A stretch of DNA of 32,763 nucleotides from Propionivibrio sp. (GTDB lineage Bacteria > Pseudomonadota > Gammaproteobacteria > Burkholderiales > Rhodocyclaceae): NCBI RefSeq assembly GCF_017995515.1, contig NZ_JAGOIT010000031.1, positions 2,856 to 35,618 on the forward strand. Reading direction: 5' to 3'. The translations under genes were made by a program, and so were the position numbers. The notes beneath the pieces were generated by a model. That model was given only the letters and a program-made list of their open reading frames with translations. It was not told where the DNA came from and ran no database searches. Positions 13,406 to 25,218 of the stretch are shown in pieces. The stretch's first letter is position 1; each line of letters begins with the position of its first letter.

Positions 13406-13428
13406 ACCCCGAGGATTGGTACCACATT

Positions 13429-13633
13429 CGTCTCAGGCCGGTCTTCTGGCTCGCCATCATCCTTCGCCAGCGCCTTCCCATGTGAAGATGTCACACAGTG
13501 GCTACGTCTTTGCTGGCGTCGTCCGGCCTACAGCAGCGGGGGGCTGCGCCGGATTTTTCCGATGACAAAACGTCGAAATTACCGGCTTCCCGTTTCTCCC
13601 ACTCCGGTTGTTCGGAGCTAGGAACCTGAAACG
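13429..13633 (-). promoter_or_regulatory. Cobalamin (AdoCbl-type) riboswitch aptamer
   Basis: Read on the minus strand, the leader holds the conserved blocks of B12 riboswitches in order: an AGGTTCC-type 5' part, GTGGGAGAAACGGGAAGCCGG, the core CCGGCGCAGCCCCCCGCTGC followed by TGTA, the B12 box GCCACTG (13496-13502), GGGAAGGCG, then GATGATGGCGAGCCAGAAGA and CCGGCC. The ends CGTTTCAGG (13625-13633) and CCTGAGACG (13429-13437) pair as a 9-base P1 stem with one G-U. The element lies between a promoter and cbiM, so B12 binding is expected to repress the cobalt uptake and cobalamin operon. Confidence 0.96.
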
Positions 13634-13639
13634 GGCGCA

Positions 13640-13668
13640 AGTATACGCCGAACGTCGTTCCGCACCAA
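13640..13668 (-). promoter_or_regulatory. Sigma70-type promoter of the cobalamin operon
   Basis: The -35 box is TTGGTG (13663-13668) and the -10 box is TATACT (13640-13645), with a 17-base spacer. The predicted transcription start falls at about 13633, exactly where the riboswitch P1 stem begins, which supports the assignment. Confidence 0.75.
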
Positions 13669-13701: not shown

Positions 13702-15357
13702 TCATCGTGGTCGACAGGTTTGCGAGATATCCATCGTCCGGTCATAGACCGTCGTTCGGATGTCAAGCAAGCCGAGTACCGAGTGGAAGAAGTGGTCGTG
13801 GGTGACGGGCCGGGTAGCCTGCGCCCGCAGGCAATCGACATCGAGCGAGAAATTCTTGGCGTAGCTTGGTGAGAACCACATCACCATGGGCACCTCCTTC
13901 TGAACCTTTGGCGCAACCGGATACGGTACCCCGTGCAGGTAGAGCCCATTTTCGCCGAGTGATTCGCCGTGATCTGACAGATAGATCATTCCCGTGTCGA
14001 ATTTCTCCTCCTGCTTTTTAAGGAAAGCAATCGTCTGCGCCAGCATGTGATCGGTGTAGAGCAGCGCGTTGTCGTACGCATTGACGATCGCTTCGCGTGA
14101 GCATTTGGCCAGGTCGGAGGTTTCACAGACCGGCTCGAATTTTCGGAAGGCCGGTGGATAGCGCTTGAAGTAGGCCGGTCCGTGGTTGCCAAGTTGGTGC
14201 AATACCAGCACGAGATTGCCATGGGTGTCGGCAAGAATGCCGTCGAGTCCGTGTAGCAGCACTTCATCCAGGCAGCGGTCACCGTCGCAAAGATCCGGGA
14301 TCTTCGAGTTACCGACTTTATGCTCCTCGACCCCCGTGCAGACGCCCTTGCAGCCCGACTGGTTGTCGCGCCAAATGACCTTCATGCCGGCCCGGTCAAG
14401 GATATTCAGCAGCGATTCGCTGTTGCGAATCTTGTCCTCGTCGTAGTTGCGTCGCCCGTAGACAGAGAACAAGCAGGGTACGGAGACTTCGGTATTCGTA
14501 CCGCAACTGGTTGTTTGCTGAAAGTTGATGACGTCGAGCTTTGACAGTTCAGGCGTGGTCTGCCTCGCATAGCCGGACAGCCCCCAGTTGGCCGTGCGTG
14601 CGGTTTCACCAACGACGATCACGAAGAGTGTGGGTTTTGTCCTGTCTTTCCAGTTCTCGCCCTTGGTTGCATCCAGGCCGACCCTGATACGTTCCCGGGT
14701 TGCTGCGCTGGCATCACTGCCGAGTACCTTGGCGATCGAATAGAGGTAGTTGCCGGGGGTGATGAGGTAACGGATCTCCTTGTGGTTGCGCATCAACGGC
14801 GCCAGTTCATGGAAGCCAAGCAGGAGTGCGCCTGCGCCAACGACGATCGCCAGCGCTATCGCCAGCAGTCGAGCGAGAGTCGAGCGACGAAACGAGTCAA
14901 GTCGCAGATGGACCCTGGACAGAAACAACAGAGGCAACACGGCATACAGAACGAGATGCGGCAGCATCCCGGCGTTGAACAGCTCGCTCGCCTCCTTGAC
15001 GTCGGTACGCAGCACGTTGCGCAACATGCTCGGGTCGAGAAATACGGTGAAGGTGCTCATGTAGTACGTGGCAAAAGCCGTGACTACGGTGAGCAGCGTC
15101 AGCAGGGGTTTGGCTGTCCAGCGATTGAACATCAGGCTGAGCAGAATGAAGTGAAGCATCACCAGCGCGACGAACAGCTCGCCGGCAAACAGCCAGGTGC
15201 CGAGCTGTCCGAATTCCCGGCCGGCGAACGATGATCTCCAGAAAAGCCCGTTGCAGGCGAGAGCGAAAAAGATGCTGGCGACGAGGGCCAGGGTTTCGAT
15301 ACGCATCGAAAGACGCCAATTGCGCCATCGCGCCAATGCTGCTGAAAGAGGAGTCAT
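13702..15357 (-). CDS. eptA: Phosphoethanolamine--lipid A transferase (EptA/MCR family)
   Basis: 551 residues. Five N-terminal membrane helices (about 20-40, 52-76, 84-106, 132-148, 162-182) are followed by a periplasmic sulfatase-fold domain. Zinc and catalytic residues appear in VVGETARTANWGLSGYARQ (Glu251), SCGTNTEVSVPCLFS (nucleophile Thr289), HQLGNHGPAYFKRYPP (His392), YLSDHGESLGENG (Asp462, His463) and LHGVPY (His475). Paired Cys (285/295, 357/362, 411/419) fit the disulfides known in MCR-1. The enzyme moves phosphoethanolamine from phosphatidylethanolamine to lipid A, lowering its negative charge; relatives give polymyxin resistance. No clear ribosome binding site precedes the ATG; Met18 is an alternative start. 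It ends 34 bases before the cobalamin operon promoter, without a clear terminator. Confidence 0.93.
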   Translation of the reverse strand: MTPLSAALARWRNWRLSMRIETLALVASIFFALACNGLFWRSSFAGREFGQLGTWLFAGELFVALVMLHFILLSLMFNRWTAKPLLTLLTVVTAFATYYMSTFTVFLDPSMLRNVLRTDVKEASELFNAGMLPHLVLYAVLPLLFLSRVHLRLDSFRRSTLARLLAIALAIVVGAGALLLGFHELAPLMRNHKEIRYLITPGNYLYSIAKVLGSDASAATRERIRVGLDATKGENWKDRTKPTLFVIVVGETARTANWGLSGYARQTTPELSKLDVINFQQTTSCGTNTEVSVPCLFSVYGRRNYDEDKIRNSESLLNILDRAGMKVIWRDNQSGCKGVCTGVEEHKVGNSKIPDLCDGDRCLDEVLLHGLDGILADTHGNLVLVLHQLGNHGPAYFKRYPPAFRKFEPVCETSDLAKCSREAIVNAYDNALLYTDHMLAQTIAFLKKQEEKFDTGMIYLSDHGESLGENGLYLHGVPYPVAPKVQKEVPMVMWFSPSYAKNFSLDVDCLRAQATRPVTHDHFFHSVLGLLDIRTTVYDRTMDISQTCRPR

Positions 15358-19819: not shown

Positions 19820-20299
19820 GTGCGCCGCGCGGCAAGGCTCGGTGGTCTCTTCCTGCTGCTCGCGACGGTGACGGTCGGCGCCGACCCGCTCGACGGGCGC
19901 GTCTACCGCGTCGTCGACGGCGACACCCTGATGGTGGTTGATGGTTCGCACCGCCAACGCGAGATTCGCCTGCTCGGGATCGATGCGCCGTGGGTCACCC
20001 AGGCGTTCGGGCAGAACGCCCGCACCGCCCTCTCGGCGCTGGCGGCGAATCAGGCGCTAAGCGCAGAATGCCGCAAGTTCGGTGCGCAGAACGTCTGCCG
20101 GGTGCGGATCGGCGGTAAGGATGTCGCACTCGAACTGGTGCGCGCCGGCATGGCCTGGTGGAACCCGCAGCACGCGTCGCTGCAGACGGAGCAGGAGCGC
20201 GCGGACTACCAGCAGGCCGAGTTCAACGCCAAGATCCGCCGCTTCGGCCTGTGGAACAGCAAGAATCCGGTGCCGCCCTGGCAATGGCGACGTCCCTGA
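19820..20299 (+). CDS. Secreted SNase-like (thermonuclease family) protein with altered active site
   Basis: 159 residues from a GTG at 19820. A signal peptide (about 1-21, LGGLFLLLATVTVGA) precedes a staphylococcal-nuclease fold. It has VYRVVDGDTLMVVDG, with the calcium Asp pair 33 and 35, then EIRLLGIDAP with Arg50 and Asp55, and DVALELVRAGMAWW. The Glu that follows DTP/DAP in active nucleases (Glu43 of SNase) is Trp58 here, and the YGR Arg (Arg87) appears as FGAQ, so two catalytic side chains are missing. Cys84 and Cys93 could form a disulfide. It is 6 bases downstream of the TauE/SafE gene and probably co-transcribed. No ribosome binding site was seen. Confidence 0.85.
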   Translation: MRRAARLGGLFLLLATVTVGADPLDGRVYRVVDGDTLMVVDGSHRQREIRLLGIDAPWVTQAFGQNARTALSALAANQALSAECRKFGAQNVCRVRIGGKDVALELVRAGMAWWNPQHASLQTEQERADYQQAEFNAKIRRFGLWNSKNPVPPWQWRRP

Positions 20300-20314
20300 A
20301 CGACGCTTGGTGTC

Positions 20315-20443
20315 TTCCAGCGCCAGCCATTTCATGCCGTGCGTGCCGAAATTCACCTGCACGTGGGTGTATGCCCGACCTTGCGCAGCGGTTCCTCGGG
20401 CAACGCACCAAGAGATGGCGAAAAGCGCCTGACCGTGCAGCAT
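20315..20443 (-). pseudogene. Decayed duplicate of the uvrD 3' end
   Basis: This stretch, in the same orientation as uvrD, repeats its 3' coding end. Bases 20315-20344 are identical to 23038-23067 over 30 bases (encoding FGTHGMKWLALE). Bases of about 20379-20405 (CCTTGCGCAGCGGTTCCTCG) match about 23272-23300. TGACCGTGCAGCAT at 20430-20443 matches 23333-23346. Compared with intact uvrD, about 180 bases are missing from the middle. It starts 15 bases after the stop of the SNase-like gene. It marks one side of an inserted segment. Confidence 0.85.
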
Positions 20444-20684: not shown

Positions 20685-22607
20685 ATGTCTCAACTTCCGC
20701 CACTCGACCCTGCGAACACACGAATCGTCGAGCGTCTCCATGCCACTATTGCTACGCTAATTCACGGCAATCAGATCGACCAGTCCGAGGTCAGGAATCT
20801 CGGCGCGCGAGCCTGTCCGTGCCACTTGAGTTACGAGGTGCGGTGGCGCTTTGTTCCAAACGCACACATCCAGCGGGTCATCGGCAATGGCGCGGTCAGC
20901 ACGCACTTCGGCGATAACCGTCACGGCTTCGATGCTGAGACCACACAACGTTGCGAGATGGGTCGTACACACCAACCCATACGCCAGCCATTCATCGATA
21001 AGTTACTGCGCCTGGGCGGCACATCCCTGGGGCTGTCCGGGCAACCTGAACCCATCTGGGACTTTGGTCAGCACTCGGTTCACGTAAATTGCCGCCGCTG
21101 CGGCGCGACCGGAAACATCACGTGCGGGAGCTGTCACGGATCCGGGCGTGAGACCTGCTTTCACTGCCACGGATCAGGATCAACAACCGAAACCCGCTGG
21201 GTGAGCGATCACAGAGGCCAGGGAAGAAGCGAGCACTATCAGCAGTCATGCTCATGGTGCGGCGCTAGCGGTCGCGTCACCTGCCGACGCTGCCAAGGCT
21301 CGGGCTCCGAAACGTGCCCTGATTGCCAAGGCCATGGTTTTTTCACTGACATCTGCCATGTCACCGTAGACGCCACGCCTTCGGTGACAGCCACTGCCGA
21401 ATCCAGCTTGTCACAAAATCGATTGCTTGAATTCCTGCTGCGCTTTCCCGTGTCGCAAGTGGTTCGCTATATCGACTTTGATTGCACGGGTCACCGTAAC
21501 GCAGGAAACGACGCCTGGTTGGTTGCCTACCAGGCCAGCACGACCACGGTCGAATTGGATGTTGGCTTGCGCGGCAAGCAGTACATGGCGGCAGCGATTG
21601 GCGAACATGCGCTCTCCTTTATCAAGCCCCCCATTTTTGATGACGTGTTCATTGAAGAACTGACCGACCTGAAAAAGATATGGTCTGGACGCAAGAAAGC
21701 GTTTAGCAACGACCGGGCCCAAAGATTTTTCGTCCGGTACTCAGGCCAGCCGGTGCTGGACAGAGCGATGAAAGCAGTTGCCAAGCTTAAGGGCAGAGAG
21801 CGTGCAGAACCCGGAAATGAAGTACTGGCTGCTTGTGATAGCTACATCTCCATCGACTCGGCCAAACTGCTGGGGCAATGCATGGCATCGTTGCTCGACA
21901 AAGTTTCGCCGCCCAATTCGCTATGGTCGTGGACTGGTGTGATGGCATTGCCGTTTTTACTGCTGTTTTTGGGCGCGCAAAACTGGTTGGAACGAAATGC
22001 GCCGGACGGGTATTTCGGCCTGACGATCGTGTGGCTGCTGACAGCACTGAGTGCCACCTTGCTAACGCTCACGGTGTCGCCACTCGCGGCAAGCCTCAGC
22101 GCCTTGGTTAGCGCCATTCGCCGCCGCGCGGTACCTGCCGAGTACCGACAGCACGGGCGCAACTGGCAACCGCTCAAGCGATTTGTTTGGTTCTCGATTG
22201 GAATTGCTTCTCTGGGCGCGAGCTTAGGTTGGTTGTCGCACCAGAACAAGTTACCCCGCTGGGACAACTTTCCGATGAACATGATCGAAGAAACCCTGAA
22301 TCTCAATCATTTCATACCCTATGCGCAAGCTGCAGCGGGACTAAAGAAAATAGGCTTCTTCGTCCCATCTCCGGCAAATACGCTGTTGATGCCGACGGTC
22401 GACCTCGTCGTGCTGGACATCCAGAACAACTTGAAGCGCTTGGGCTACAAAGTAACCGCGACAGGGCAAATTGACAACGCGACGCAGCAAGCGGTCGCCG
22501 CCTACGTGAAAAAACGCAAGCTCAACTCAGCGGAACCGCAAGCCATTCTAGCCTCGCTGTGCAAAGACCTGCGCGGCGCCTGCGCCAACATCTCGCAGAT
22601 CAAATGA
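20685..22607 (+). CDS. Membrane protein with DnaJ-type zinc-finger repeats and a peptidoglycan-binding-like C-terminus
   Basis: 640 residues, not a recognised named family. In order: an N-terminal region (1-130) with no clear fold but CPC at 44-46; six CxxCxGxG-like motifs at Cys136/139, 147/150, 158/161, 189/192, 200/203 and 211/214, arranged as two triplets with 11-residue periods; and a soluble middle domain (about 240-405). Three hydrophobic segments follow (about 412-432, 443-478, 499-517). The C-terminal stretch about 572-613 (LDIQNNLKRLGYKVTATGQI, then TQQAVAAYVKKRKL) fits the PG_binding_1 repeat pattern. DnaJ itself has four such Cys motifs and a J domain; no J domain is present. Base composition is lower in GC than that of its neighbours and the gene lies between two copies of the uvrD 3' end, so it is probably acquired. 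A role in envelope protein folding or redox sensing would be speculation. Confidence 0.85.
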   Translation: MSQLPPLDPANTRIVERLHATIATLIHGNQIDQSEVRNLGARACPCHLSYEVRWRFVPNAHIQRVIGNGAVSTHFGDNRHGFDAETTQRCEMGRTHQPIRQPFIDKLLRLGGTSLGLSGQPEPIWDFGQHSVHVNCRRCGATGNITCGSCHGSGRETCFHCHGSGSTTETRWVSDHRGQGRSEHYQQSCSWCGASGRVTCRRCQGSGSETCPDCQGHGFFTDICHVTVDATPSVTATAESSLSQNRLLEFLLRFPVSQVVRYIDFDCTGHRNAGNDAWLVAYQASTTTVELDVGLRGKQYMAAAIGEHALSFIKPPIFDDVFIEELTDLKKIWSGRKKAFSNDRAQRFFVRYSGQPVLDRAMKAVAKLKGRERAEPGNEVLAACDSYISIDSAKLLGQCMASLLDKVSPPNSLWSWTGVMALPFLLLFLGAQNWLERNAPDGYFGLTIVWLLTALSATLLTLTVSPLAASLSALVSAIRRRAVPAEYRQHGRNWQPLKRFVWFSIGIASLGASLGWLSHQNKLPRWDNFPMNMIEETLNLNHFIPYAQAAAGLKKIGFFVPSPANTLLMPTVDLVVLDIQNNLKRLGYKVTATGQIDNATQQAVAAYVKKRKLNSAEPQAILASLCKDLRGACANISQIK

Positions 22608-23013: not shown

Positions 23014-25218
23014 TCAGCAGTGCGTCAGTTTCGCGTATTCCAGCGCCAGCCATTTCATGCCGTGCGTCCCGAAATTAACCTCAACGCGCGCGTCGGCGCC
23101 CCGCCCTTCGGCCGAGACGATCACGCCGAGGCCGAACTTGGCGTGCTGCACGTTCTGACCGATGCGGAAGCCGCCGACCGTCGCCGGTTCGCTGGCTGAG
23201 AGTTTCGTCGCCGTGCCGCCGGACGAATAACCGGACGGCACCTTCGCCGCATACGACGGCACGTTGCCGACCTTGCGCAGCAGGTCCTCGGGTAACTCTT
23301 CGAGGAACATCGACGGCACGCAGTAGCGCGTCTGACCGTGCAGCATGCGCGTCTGCGCGTGCGTGAGATACAGGCGCTTGCGCGCGCGGGTGACGGCGAC
23401 GTACATCAGGCGCCGCTCTTCCTCGACGCCATCGCGTTCCTGCGTCGAATTGTCGTGCGGGAAGAGGCCGTGTTCGAGGCCGGTGATGAAGACGACGTCG
23501 AATTCCAGTCCCTTGGCGGCATGCACGGTCATCAGTTGCACCGCCTCCTGCCCTTCGCCGGCCTGATGCTCGCCGGCTTCGAGCGAAGCGTGTGCGAGGA
23601 AGGACGCGAGTGGATCGGCGTCGACCGGGTTGGCCAGCGTGTCGGACTCTTCCTGCACGAAGCTGGTCGCCGCGTTGATCAGTTCGTCGAGGTTCTCCAG
23701 CCGCTCGCCGCCTTCCTTCTCGCCGAGGTAATGCTGGCGCAGGCCGCTCTTCTCGATCAGGTGGTCGATCACTTCGGGCAAGGGCAAGCCCTGCGTCTCG
23801 TTGCGCATGGATTCGACCAGCCGGATGAAATTGCCGACCGACGCACCGGCCTTGCCCGACAGGCTGGCCGCCGCGTTATAGAGGCTCGAATTGGCACGGT
23901 GCGCGGCTTCCTGCAGCGCCTCGACGCTGCGGCTGCCGATGCCGCGCGTCGGGAAATTTACGACGCGTGCGAACGCCGTGTCGTCGTCCGGATTAGCGAT
24001 CAGGCGCAGGTAGGCGAGTGCGTGCTTCACTTCCTGGCGGTCGAAGAAGCGTGTTCCCCCGTAGATTCGGTATGAGACTTCGGACTTAATGAGCTGGTGC
24101 TCAAGCACGCGCGATTGAGCATTGGAGCGGTAGAGCAAAGCGATTTGCGTGCAGTGCATTCCTTCGCGCACCAGCTCGCGCACTTCGTCGACGATGAAGC
24201 GCGCTTCGTCGAGATCGGAAAAACCCTCGAAGACGCGGATCGGTTCGCCGGCACCGGCATCGGTCCACAGGTTCTTGCCGAGCCGACCGCGGTTGTTCTT
24301 GATCAGCGCGTTCGCCGCGTCGAGGATGTTGCCGTGCGAGCGGTAGTTCTGTTCGAGACGGATGACGTTGGCGACCTTGAATTCGCGTTCGAGGTCGCGC
24401 ATGTTGCCAACCTCGGCGCCGCGAAAGGCGTAGATCGACTGGTCGTCGTCGCCGACGGCGAACAGGCACGCGCCGTCCGGCTGCGCCCCCGAAGCGTCGT
24501 GGCCGGCGAGCAGCTTCAGCCACGCATACTGCAGTCGGTTGGTGTCCTGGAATTCGTCGACGAGGATGTGGCGGAAGCGCTCCTGGTAATGCCGGCGTAG
24601 CGGCTCGTTGCGGCAGAGCAGTTCGTAAGTGCGCAGCAGCAGCTCGGCGAAATCGACGACGCCCTCGCGCTGGCATTGCGCGTCGTACTCGGCGTAGAGA
24701 TCGACGCGGCGCTGCGTGTAGTCGTCGTAGACCTCGGCCTGCGCGGCGCGGATGCCCTGTTCCTTGTGCGCGTTGATGAAGTGGGCCAGCTCGCGCGGCG
24801 GGTACTTCTCGTCGTCGACGTTGAGGTTCTTCAGCAGACGCTTGATCGCCGACAGCTGGTCGGCCGAATCGAGGATCTGGAAGGTCGCCGGCAGCGCCGC
24901 CTCGCGGTGATGGGCGCGCAGCAGGCGGTTGCACAGCCCGTGAAACGTCCCGATCCACATGCCGCGCGCGGAGTGACCAAAATGCATCGGCAGCATCGCC
25001 GAGAGCCGCGCCAGCATCTCCTTCGCCGCCTTGTTGGTAAACGTCACGGCGAGAATCCCGTGCGGGCCGACCTGCCCGGTCGAGATCAGCCAGGCGATGC
25101 GCGTCGTCAATACGCGCGTCTTGCCGCTGCCGGCGCCGGCGAGGATCAGCGCGTGCTGCGGCGGCAGGGTGACGGCGGCGAGTTGTTCGGGATTGAGGTT
25201 GGCGAGCAGGTCGGACAT
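23014..25218 (-). CDS. uvrD: DNA helicase II (UvrD/Rep/PcrA family)
   Basis: 734 residues, the usual UvrD length. Superfamily 1A motifs are all present: the Q motif LNPEQLAAV; Walker A AGAGSGKTRVLTTR; Ia VTFTNKAAKEM; II VDEFQDTNRLQY; III FAVGDDDQSIYAFRGA; IV RLEQNYRS; V LMTVHAAKGLEFDVVFI; VI RRLMYVAVTRARKRL. The C-terminus has the UvrD tail (GFRIGQNVQHAKFGLGVIVSAEG, then VEVNFGTHGMKWLALEYAKL). It unwinds DNA 3'-5' in nucleotide excision and mismatch repair. A decayed copy of its last part lies 2.7 kb downstream at 20315-20443, so the present 3' end may have been brought in with the inserted segment. Confidence 0.97.
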   Translation of the reverse strand: MSDLLANLNPEQLAAVTLPPQHALILAGAGSGKTRVLTTRIAWLISTGQVGPHGILAVTFTNKAAKEMLARLSAMLPMHFGHSARGMWIGTFHGLCNRLLRAHHREAALPATFQILDSADQLSAIKRLLKNLNVDDEKYPPRELAHFINAHKEQGIRAAQAEVYDDYTQRRVDLYAEYDAQCQREGVVDFAELLLRTYELLCRNEPLRRHYQERFRHILVDEFQDTNRLQYAWLKLLAGHDASGAQPDGACLFAVGDDDQSIYAFRGAEVGNMRDLEREFKVANVIRLEQNYRSHGNILDAANALIKNNRGRLGKNLWTDAGAGEPIRVFEGFSDLDEARFIVDEVRELVREGMHCTQIALLYRSNAQSRVLEHQLIKSEVSYRIYGGTRFFDRQEVKHALAYLRLIANPDDDTAFARVVNFPTRGIGSRSVEALQEAAHRANSSLYNAAASLSGKAGASVGNFIRLVESMRNETQGLPLPEVIDHLIEKSGLRQHYLGEKEGGERLENLDELINAATSFVQEESDTLANPVDADPLASFLAHASLEAGEHQAGEGQEAVQLMTVHAAKGLEFDVVFITGLEHGLFPHDNSTQERDGVEEERRLMYVAVTRARKRLYLTHAQTRMLHGQTRYCVPSMFLEELPEDLLRKVGNVPSYAAKVPSGYSSGGTATKLSASEPATVGGFRIGQNVQHAKFGLGVIVSAEGRGADARVEVNFGTHGMKWLALEYAKLTHC

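Follow-up and report, generated by a model that had tools for sequence, protein, structure and literature searches.

On the evidence of its sequence, the 640-residue protein encoded in the window (the whole stretch of 32,763 nucleotides analysed here) is a member of an unnamed and scattered protein family, the members of which consist of an N-terminal domain, a hairpin of CxxC motifs with arms of equal length, a soluble domain and, usually, three membrane segments. An architecture of J-domain-less CxxC hairpin, soluble domain and membrane segments is well supported, and the likeliest function, by analogy, is a chaperone-like one at the membrane. We tentatively favor the explanation that it is a membrane-anchored protein of the DnaJ zinc-finger type without a J domain, which would hold or assemble client proteins independently of DnaK and which in this case would be tethered to the cell wall. 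The architecture of the window protein is rare and unnamed, and few members of its family carry a wall-binding-like tail.

The gene and its protein

The features of the gene, its product and its borders are listed in Table 1. The reading frame is under purifying selection, with pN of 0.31 and pS of 0.73 over 562 codons in comparison with a 54% identical homologue (L007). When the protein was shuffled 20,000 times, six or more CxxC motifs arose once and a triplet of CxxC motifs at 11-residue spacing never. The shuffles, the selection and the existence of homologues rule out a chance or spurious ORF.

Table 1. Location of the gene, the parts of its product and the bordering sequences (window positions)
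Feature	Position	Strand	Remarks
Gene, 640-residue protein	20685..22607	+	Stop codon included; purifying selection against L007
N-terminal domain, residues 1-135	20685..21089	+	Weak similarity to other members (hhalign 17%)
Cysteine hairpin, residues 136-217	21090..21335	+	3+3 CxxC, 11-residue steps, 31 from motif 3 to 4
Family-specific soluble domain, residues 218-412	21336..21920	+	Unrelated to the DnaJ C-terminal part
Hydrophobic segment 1, residues 413-431	21921..21977	+	Kyte-Doolittle
Hydrophobic segment 2, residues 446-464	22020..22076	+	Kyte-Doolittle
Hydrophobic segment 3, residues 500-518	22182..22238	+	Kyte-Doolittle
Tail, residues 519-640, predicted outside the inner membrane	22239..22604	+	Missing past about residue 560 in L007
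PG_binding_1-like stretch, residues 576-612	22410..22520	+	Pfam
Decayed copy of the uvrD 3′-end, left side of insert	about 20307-20443	-	Sequence comparison
Intact uvrD, 3′-end bordering insert	23014..25218	-	
snc, adjoins uvrD in congener G002	19820..20299	+	Thermonuclease-like by eye

The CxxC motifs begin at residues 136, 147, 158, 189, 200 and 211, exactly where the earlier note had placed them; its description of all six as CxxCxGxG fails, since only four (147, 158, 200 and 211) are complete and the other two read CxxCGAxG. The DnaJ_CXXCXGXG family (PF00684) gives a significant match, yet one that lies under its cut-off of 32.7 bits (21.1 bits with the whole protein, 26 with residues 1-240). 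A module resembling the DnaJ zinc finger, as had been proposed, is supported, with zinc binding as a prediction. The reported absence of a J domain is borne out by Pfam, which lists no J-domain family at E values up to 10, and by the lack of an HPD motif. NCBIfam yields a single sub-threshold match to DnaJ (15.9 against 377.2 bits), PADLOC defense models yield 0 families at E values up to 10, and PHROGs yields weak matches on the tail (two endolysins, best E 8.1e-4, a holin and one unknown family) and on the cysteine part (two unknown families). No model in these four collections covers the protein, in line with the earlier remark that no named family was known to possess this order of parts. 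Structure predictions reach a mean pLDDT of only 32.6 for the whole protein and 34.9 for the hairpin.

The C-terminal fit to PG_binding_1 (PF01471), another of the features noted earlier, exceeds the Pfam cut-off (24.6 against 23 bits; E 2.8e-5), reaches 27.8 bits when the tail is searched alone, and covers positions 5-42 of the 57 in the profile. No hydrolase or other enzyme domain is listed by Pfam for this protein. Three membrane segments had also been postulated, and three are found by Kyte-Doolittle analysis. The numbers of Lys and Arg residues near the membrane are two on the N-terminal side, one in loop 1, seven in loop 2 and two in the tail; the excess in loop 2 over loop 1 predicts an N-in, C-out topology, in agreement with the suggestion that the two ends lie on opposite sides.

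The insertion site

The gene has a GC3 of 0.661, compared with 0.723-0.879 in six neighboring genes, namely uvrD, tkt, tauE, an aldolase gene and snc (0.847-0.879) and an eptA-type gene (0.723). This foreign composition is consistent with the lower-GC insertion that had been described. A congener (G002) possesses the order tauE-snc-uvrD without the 640-codon gene, and there only 12 bases, stops included, lie between the last coding codon of snc and that of uvrD. In the window, the decayed copy of the uvrD end comprises one 67-base block with 55 identical positions and further blocks of 30 bases (90%) and 19 bases (95%). From the gene order in the congener, the decayed copy and the intact uvrD end at 23014, we conclude that the gene was inserted at the end of uvrD with a partial duplication of the latter. 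By these comparisons it is foreign to its site and was acquired by insertion. The window contains no tRNA gene, and inspection by eye of the ORFs in the insert revealed neither an integrase nor a transposase.

Near and distant relatives

The closest homologue, L007, is found on a contig of a Nevskiaceae metagenome-assembled genome; it has six CxxC motifs in its main cluster, possesses three hydrophobic segments and stops short of the PG_binding_1 stretch. The protein matched four of 198 relatives of the window's genome, its own included, and the sole other convincing match was in G085 (50% over residues 130-225), the protein of which (P0002; 499 residues) possesses 3+3 CxxC motifs and two hydrophobic segments. 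Four loci were set aside as weak, L003 and L004 upon reading of their ORFs, and L005 (three internal stops) and L006 (residues 579-621 only) from the match table. More distant members are carried by a megaplasmid of Methylorubrum extorquens AM1, by Azospirillum plasmids (seven records, each matching at least 80% of the protein with 87.5-100% identity) and by a Rhizobium plasmid. In a scan of the phylum 60 of 398 genomes matched, 30 of them outside the loci examined. Of the 28 loci L015-L042, 26 contain an ORF with at least four CxxC motifs plus HPD, which marks it as DnaJ; G904 was kept as a family member. The relatives share the order of parts up to the tail, and the notion that the protein stands alone as an isolated fusion is therefore replaced by that of a scattered family.

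The loop between the two CxxC triplets (residues 162-188 of the window protein, the 31-residue step) is strikingly alike in the window protein and P0002, where both read T.ET.W..DHRG, even though there is hardly any likeness between their remaining domains. This loop may be a functional tip.

Viral contigs, plasmids and phages contained no relatives of the window protein, and none was confirmed when viral contigs were searched with other family members; since the PHROGs matches are weak as well, a phage origin was rejected. Two CxxC-rich ORFs were excluded from the family on reading: L012:2921-4351, from the 634,780-base record of an uncultured phage, and L010:4623-5735, on a haloarchaeal (Halobiforma) plasmid between SNF2-related and DUF1156 genes.

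Homology outside the cysteine region

A profile (A4) was built from the post-cysteine and membrane parts of five members, essentially without cysteines; two of its five rows start with a fragment of the last CxxC motif, in columns that are gapped in the other three. Among 337 genomes from the class of G904, which belongs to the same phylum as the window's genome and a different class, probably the Alphaproteobacteria, twelve were matched, one of them being G904, which already contributes a row to A4. ORFs of 507-581 codons between stops are present in ten of the twelve loci, every one of them carrying eight CxxC motifs; as G904 is one of the ten, nine are new. The two weakest matches (L075 and L076) have no ORF with three or more CxxC motifs; L072 has eight, and does not form part of the alignment A6. 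Against the 198 relatives of the window's genome, A4 recovered the gene of the window and, late in the model, a single weak match (E 4.3e-4). A second profile (A7; 14 rows, post-cysteine part) matched just one gene, that of the window, among 229 genomes from the same class as the window's.

A post-cysteine profile from which the window protein and L007 had been left out recognizes both (at Z=1000, E 1.5e-5 for L007 and 5.3e-3 for the window protein), above 1,000 shuffles. When members were left out singly, those of Methylorubrum (E 4.4e-8), Azospirillum (1.4e-7) and G904 (5.5e-9) were recovered; the Rhizobium protein scored 0.086 and was beaten by a shuffle, and G085 fell outside the best three. 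The latter two, unrecognized outside the cysteine region in these tests, are regarded as provisional members. For the same reason P0002 was excluded from A6, while still being counted among the 15 members. Comparison of profiles by hhalign gives a probability of 95.3% (E 2.3e-8) for approximately the soluble post-cysteine part of the window protein and L007 against 12 others, and 91.9% for the post-cysteine plus membrane part of this pair against nine members from the class of G904; against Methylorubrum and Azospirillum alone it is only 9.8%. None of six leave-out tests yielded a significant match for the N-terminal part, and the N-terminal domains of the nine members from the class of G904 align with the rest at 17%.

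The hairpin, the membrane part and the tail

By a strict count 13 of the 15 members possess equal CxxC arms, nine of them 4+4 and four 3+3. The exceptions are Azospirillum (1+3) and Rhizobium (3+4), which become 3+3 and 4+4, respectively, once degenerate motifs assigned by eye (CGGDGC, CTH and CGC) are included. In G904 and eight other loci of its class with wide flanks the steps are 11, 11 and 11, then 15-19, then again 11, 11 and 11 residues. The seven members counted contain 16 to 22 cysteines each, mostly in CxxC motifs, and HPD is absent from all 15 members. The family profile matches the solved zinc domain of DnaJ (1exk; E 1.5e-7) and BSD2 (E 3.1e-6).

The zinc motifs of DnaJ pair 1 with 4 and 2 with 3. 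Equal arms at fixed steps point to the same rule in the family, motif i pairing with motif n+1-i, which suggests a nested pairing of 1-6, 2-5 and 3-4 in the window protein. A bolder version, which we think rather improbable, is an extensible zinc ladder obeying this rule, in which motifs would be gained and lost in twos (4+4, 3+3), three or four zinc sites would be stacked at the inner membrane, and some members would couple the ladder through the membrane to the wall. If so, the state of the wall and cytoplasmic protein quality control could be physically coupled in those members.

At the threshold used, three C-terminal hydrophobic segments are present in 11 of the 15 members, two in L084, L085 and G085, and one in L086. 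Loop 2 contains more Lys and Arg residues than loop 1 in all 11 of the three-segment proteins, in Azospirillum barely so (two against one). A PG_binding_1-like tail is present in two of the 15 members (Pfam lists it for two of 14, plus none for G085): the window protein and that of Azospirillum, where it falls just under the cut-off of 23 bits (20.5 with the whole protein, 22.9 with a fragment). In both it lies beyond the last hydrophobic segment, on the predicted outer side. This end, listed by the earlier note among the parts of the protein, is accessory in the family, and it is missing from the closest homologue.

Gene neighborhoods

Nine loci from the class of G904 were viewed, with genes named partly by Pfam and partly by eye. 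The family gene adjoins uvrA-type genes in L079 (by Pfam) and L084, ychF in L082, rho in L083, a dienelactone hydrolase gene in L081 and L086 (by Pfam in the latter), a glycosyltransferase gene in L063, and DUF4167 and methyltransferase genes in L080. In L085 (G1019) it is flanked by csrA and an ORF resembling the C-terminus of FlhB (Pfam), in what by eye is a flagellar cluster. L081, L083 and L086 have rho- and hemE-like genes nearby in common (hemE by eye), as expected from vertical inheritance. The G085 gene lies near TrwB/TrwC conjugation genes (L064:2098-8630) and overlaps the end of an upstream ORF with a sub-threshold PD-(D/E)XK-like match. In Azospirillum there is a 105-codon ORF just upstream, and the opposite strand carries a gene for an MscS-type channel at a distance of about 1.9 kb. 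No constant partner gene is found among the neighborhoods viewed. The idea that homologues might share a mobile or defense setting was not upheld, their neighbors in the class of G904 being of the uvrA, rho, ychF and csrA types and G085 being the one relative near TrwB/TrwC.

Comparison with DnaJ-type proteins and possible function

The cysteine-rich part resembles the zinc finger of DnaJ (type I Hsp40). DnaJ has four CxxCxGxG motifs; the window protein has six CxxC, four of them complete. The domain following the cysteines is unrelated to its counterpart in 26 DnaJ proteins (hhalign 0.4%), which together with the lack of HPD rules out a piece of DnaJ. From the excerpts of the literature consulted, DnaJE proteins retain four CxxCxGxG repeats, and the DnaJE1 members lack the J domain (PMC12063368). 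This class, which includes ORANGE, BSD2, ZnJ2 and ZnJ6, thus shares with the present family DnaJ-type CxxC repeats without a J domain, and some of its members are also membrane proteins (two predicted segments in ORANGE, one in ZnJ6). The present family differs in having six or eight CxxC motifs rather than four repeats, a soluble domain of its own and, in the window protein, a PG_binding_1-like tail as well. Its segments follow the cysteines, whereas the two predicted transmembrane domains of ORANGE precede the zinc finger, according to the same excerpts (PMC12063368). The tail is like those of PG_binding_1 proteins, though Pfam lists no enzyme domain beside it.

DnaJE1 proteins are described as working independently of HSP70/DnaK (PMC12063368, PMC7865324, PMC5818400); ZnJ2 prevents aggregation without synergy with DnaK (PMC5818400), and ZnJ6 is a membrane-associated, DnaJ-like protein with oxidizing activity (PMC7865324). 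In these papers, the DnaJ-type zinc proteins that lack a J domain are chaperones in the plastids of plants and algae (PMC7865324, PMC5818400, PMC12063368). No such bacterial family appears in the titles and abstract openings among the matches listed, in a search that left subscription journals mostly outside.

The present family plausibly works like the DnaJE1 proteins. In the arrangement that we envisage, the cytoplasmic side would have the N-terminal domain and the soluble domain with a long zinc hairpin of antiparallel arms between them, three helices would cross the inner membrane, and the C-terminus would be outside. By analogy with the plastid proteins, the cytoplasmic part would hold client proteins or aid assembly at the membrane without DnaK, and in the window and Azospirillum members the outer end would tether the protein to the cell wall. 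Should this tether work, the cytoplasmic face of the membrane would be connected to peptidoglycan in an unusual way. A family of bacterial membrane proteins whose CxxC hairpins are longer and symmetric would mean that the module occurs in bacteria also and is variable in length there, and Azospirillum and Methylorubrum would be simple soil bacteria in which the role of such a hairpin without DnaK could be addressed.

The same hairpin could instead sense zinc or oxidation and signal at the membrane, no clients being held. The abundance of cysteines, the oxidizing activity reported in the excerpt on the membrane protein ZnJ6 (PMC7865324) and the match of one member to the Anti-TRAP regulator model (E 0.0011) speak for such a sensor, but a known output domain is found in none of 14 members scanned and there is no constant partner gene, leaving this reading doubtful. 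It is unlikely that the protein is an assembly factor for one envelope machine, for instance in flagellar or secretion assembly, which would be placed at the wall by its tail: the placement between csrA and the FlhB-like ORF in G1019 would fit, as would a tail in two members, yet a flagellar setting occurs in one of the nine loci viewed from that class.

We consider it very unlikely that the protein is a horizontally spread mobile accessory or defense protein, in which a cysteine sensor is coupled to membrane helices. This would account for the foreign GC3, the empty site in the congener, the absence of the gene from 228 of 229 genomes of the window's class and the surroundings of the G085 gene, near conjugation genes and beside the sub-threshold PD-(D/E)XK-like ORF; against it are the lack of a PADLOC match for the window protein, the housekeeping-type neighbors in the class of G904, three loci of which have rho- and hemE-like genes in common, and four scans of viral contigs in which no relative was confirmed.

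Other features of the window

A cobalamin riboswitch aptamer (RF00174; 103.9 bits) is located at 13419-13644 on the minus strand, upstream of a block of minus-strand genes. The eptA-type gene, with a GC3 below that of the other neighbors measured, occupies 13702-15357 on the same strand and specifies a phosphoethanolamine transferase of the EptA/EptB type with sulfatase and EptA_B_N domains.
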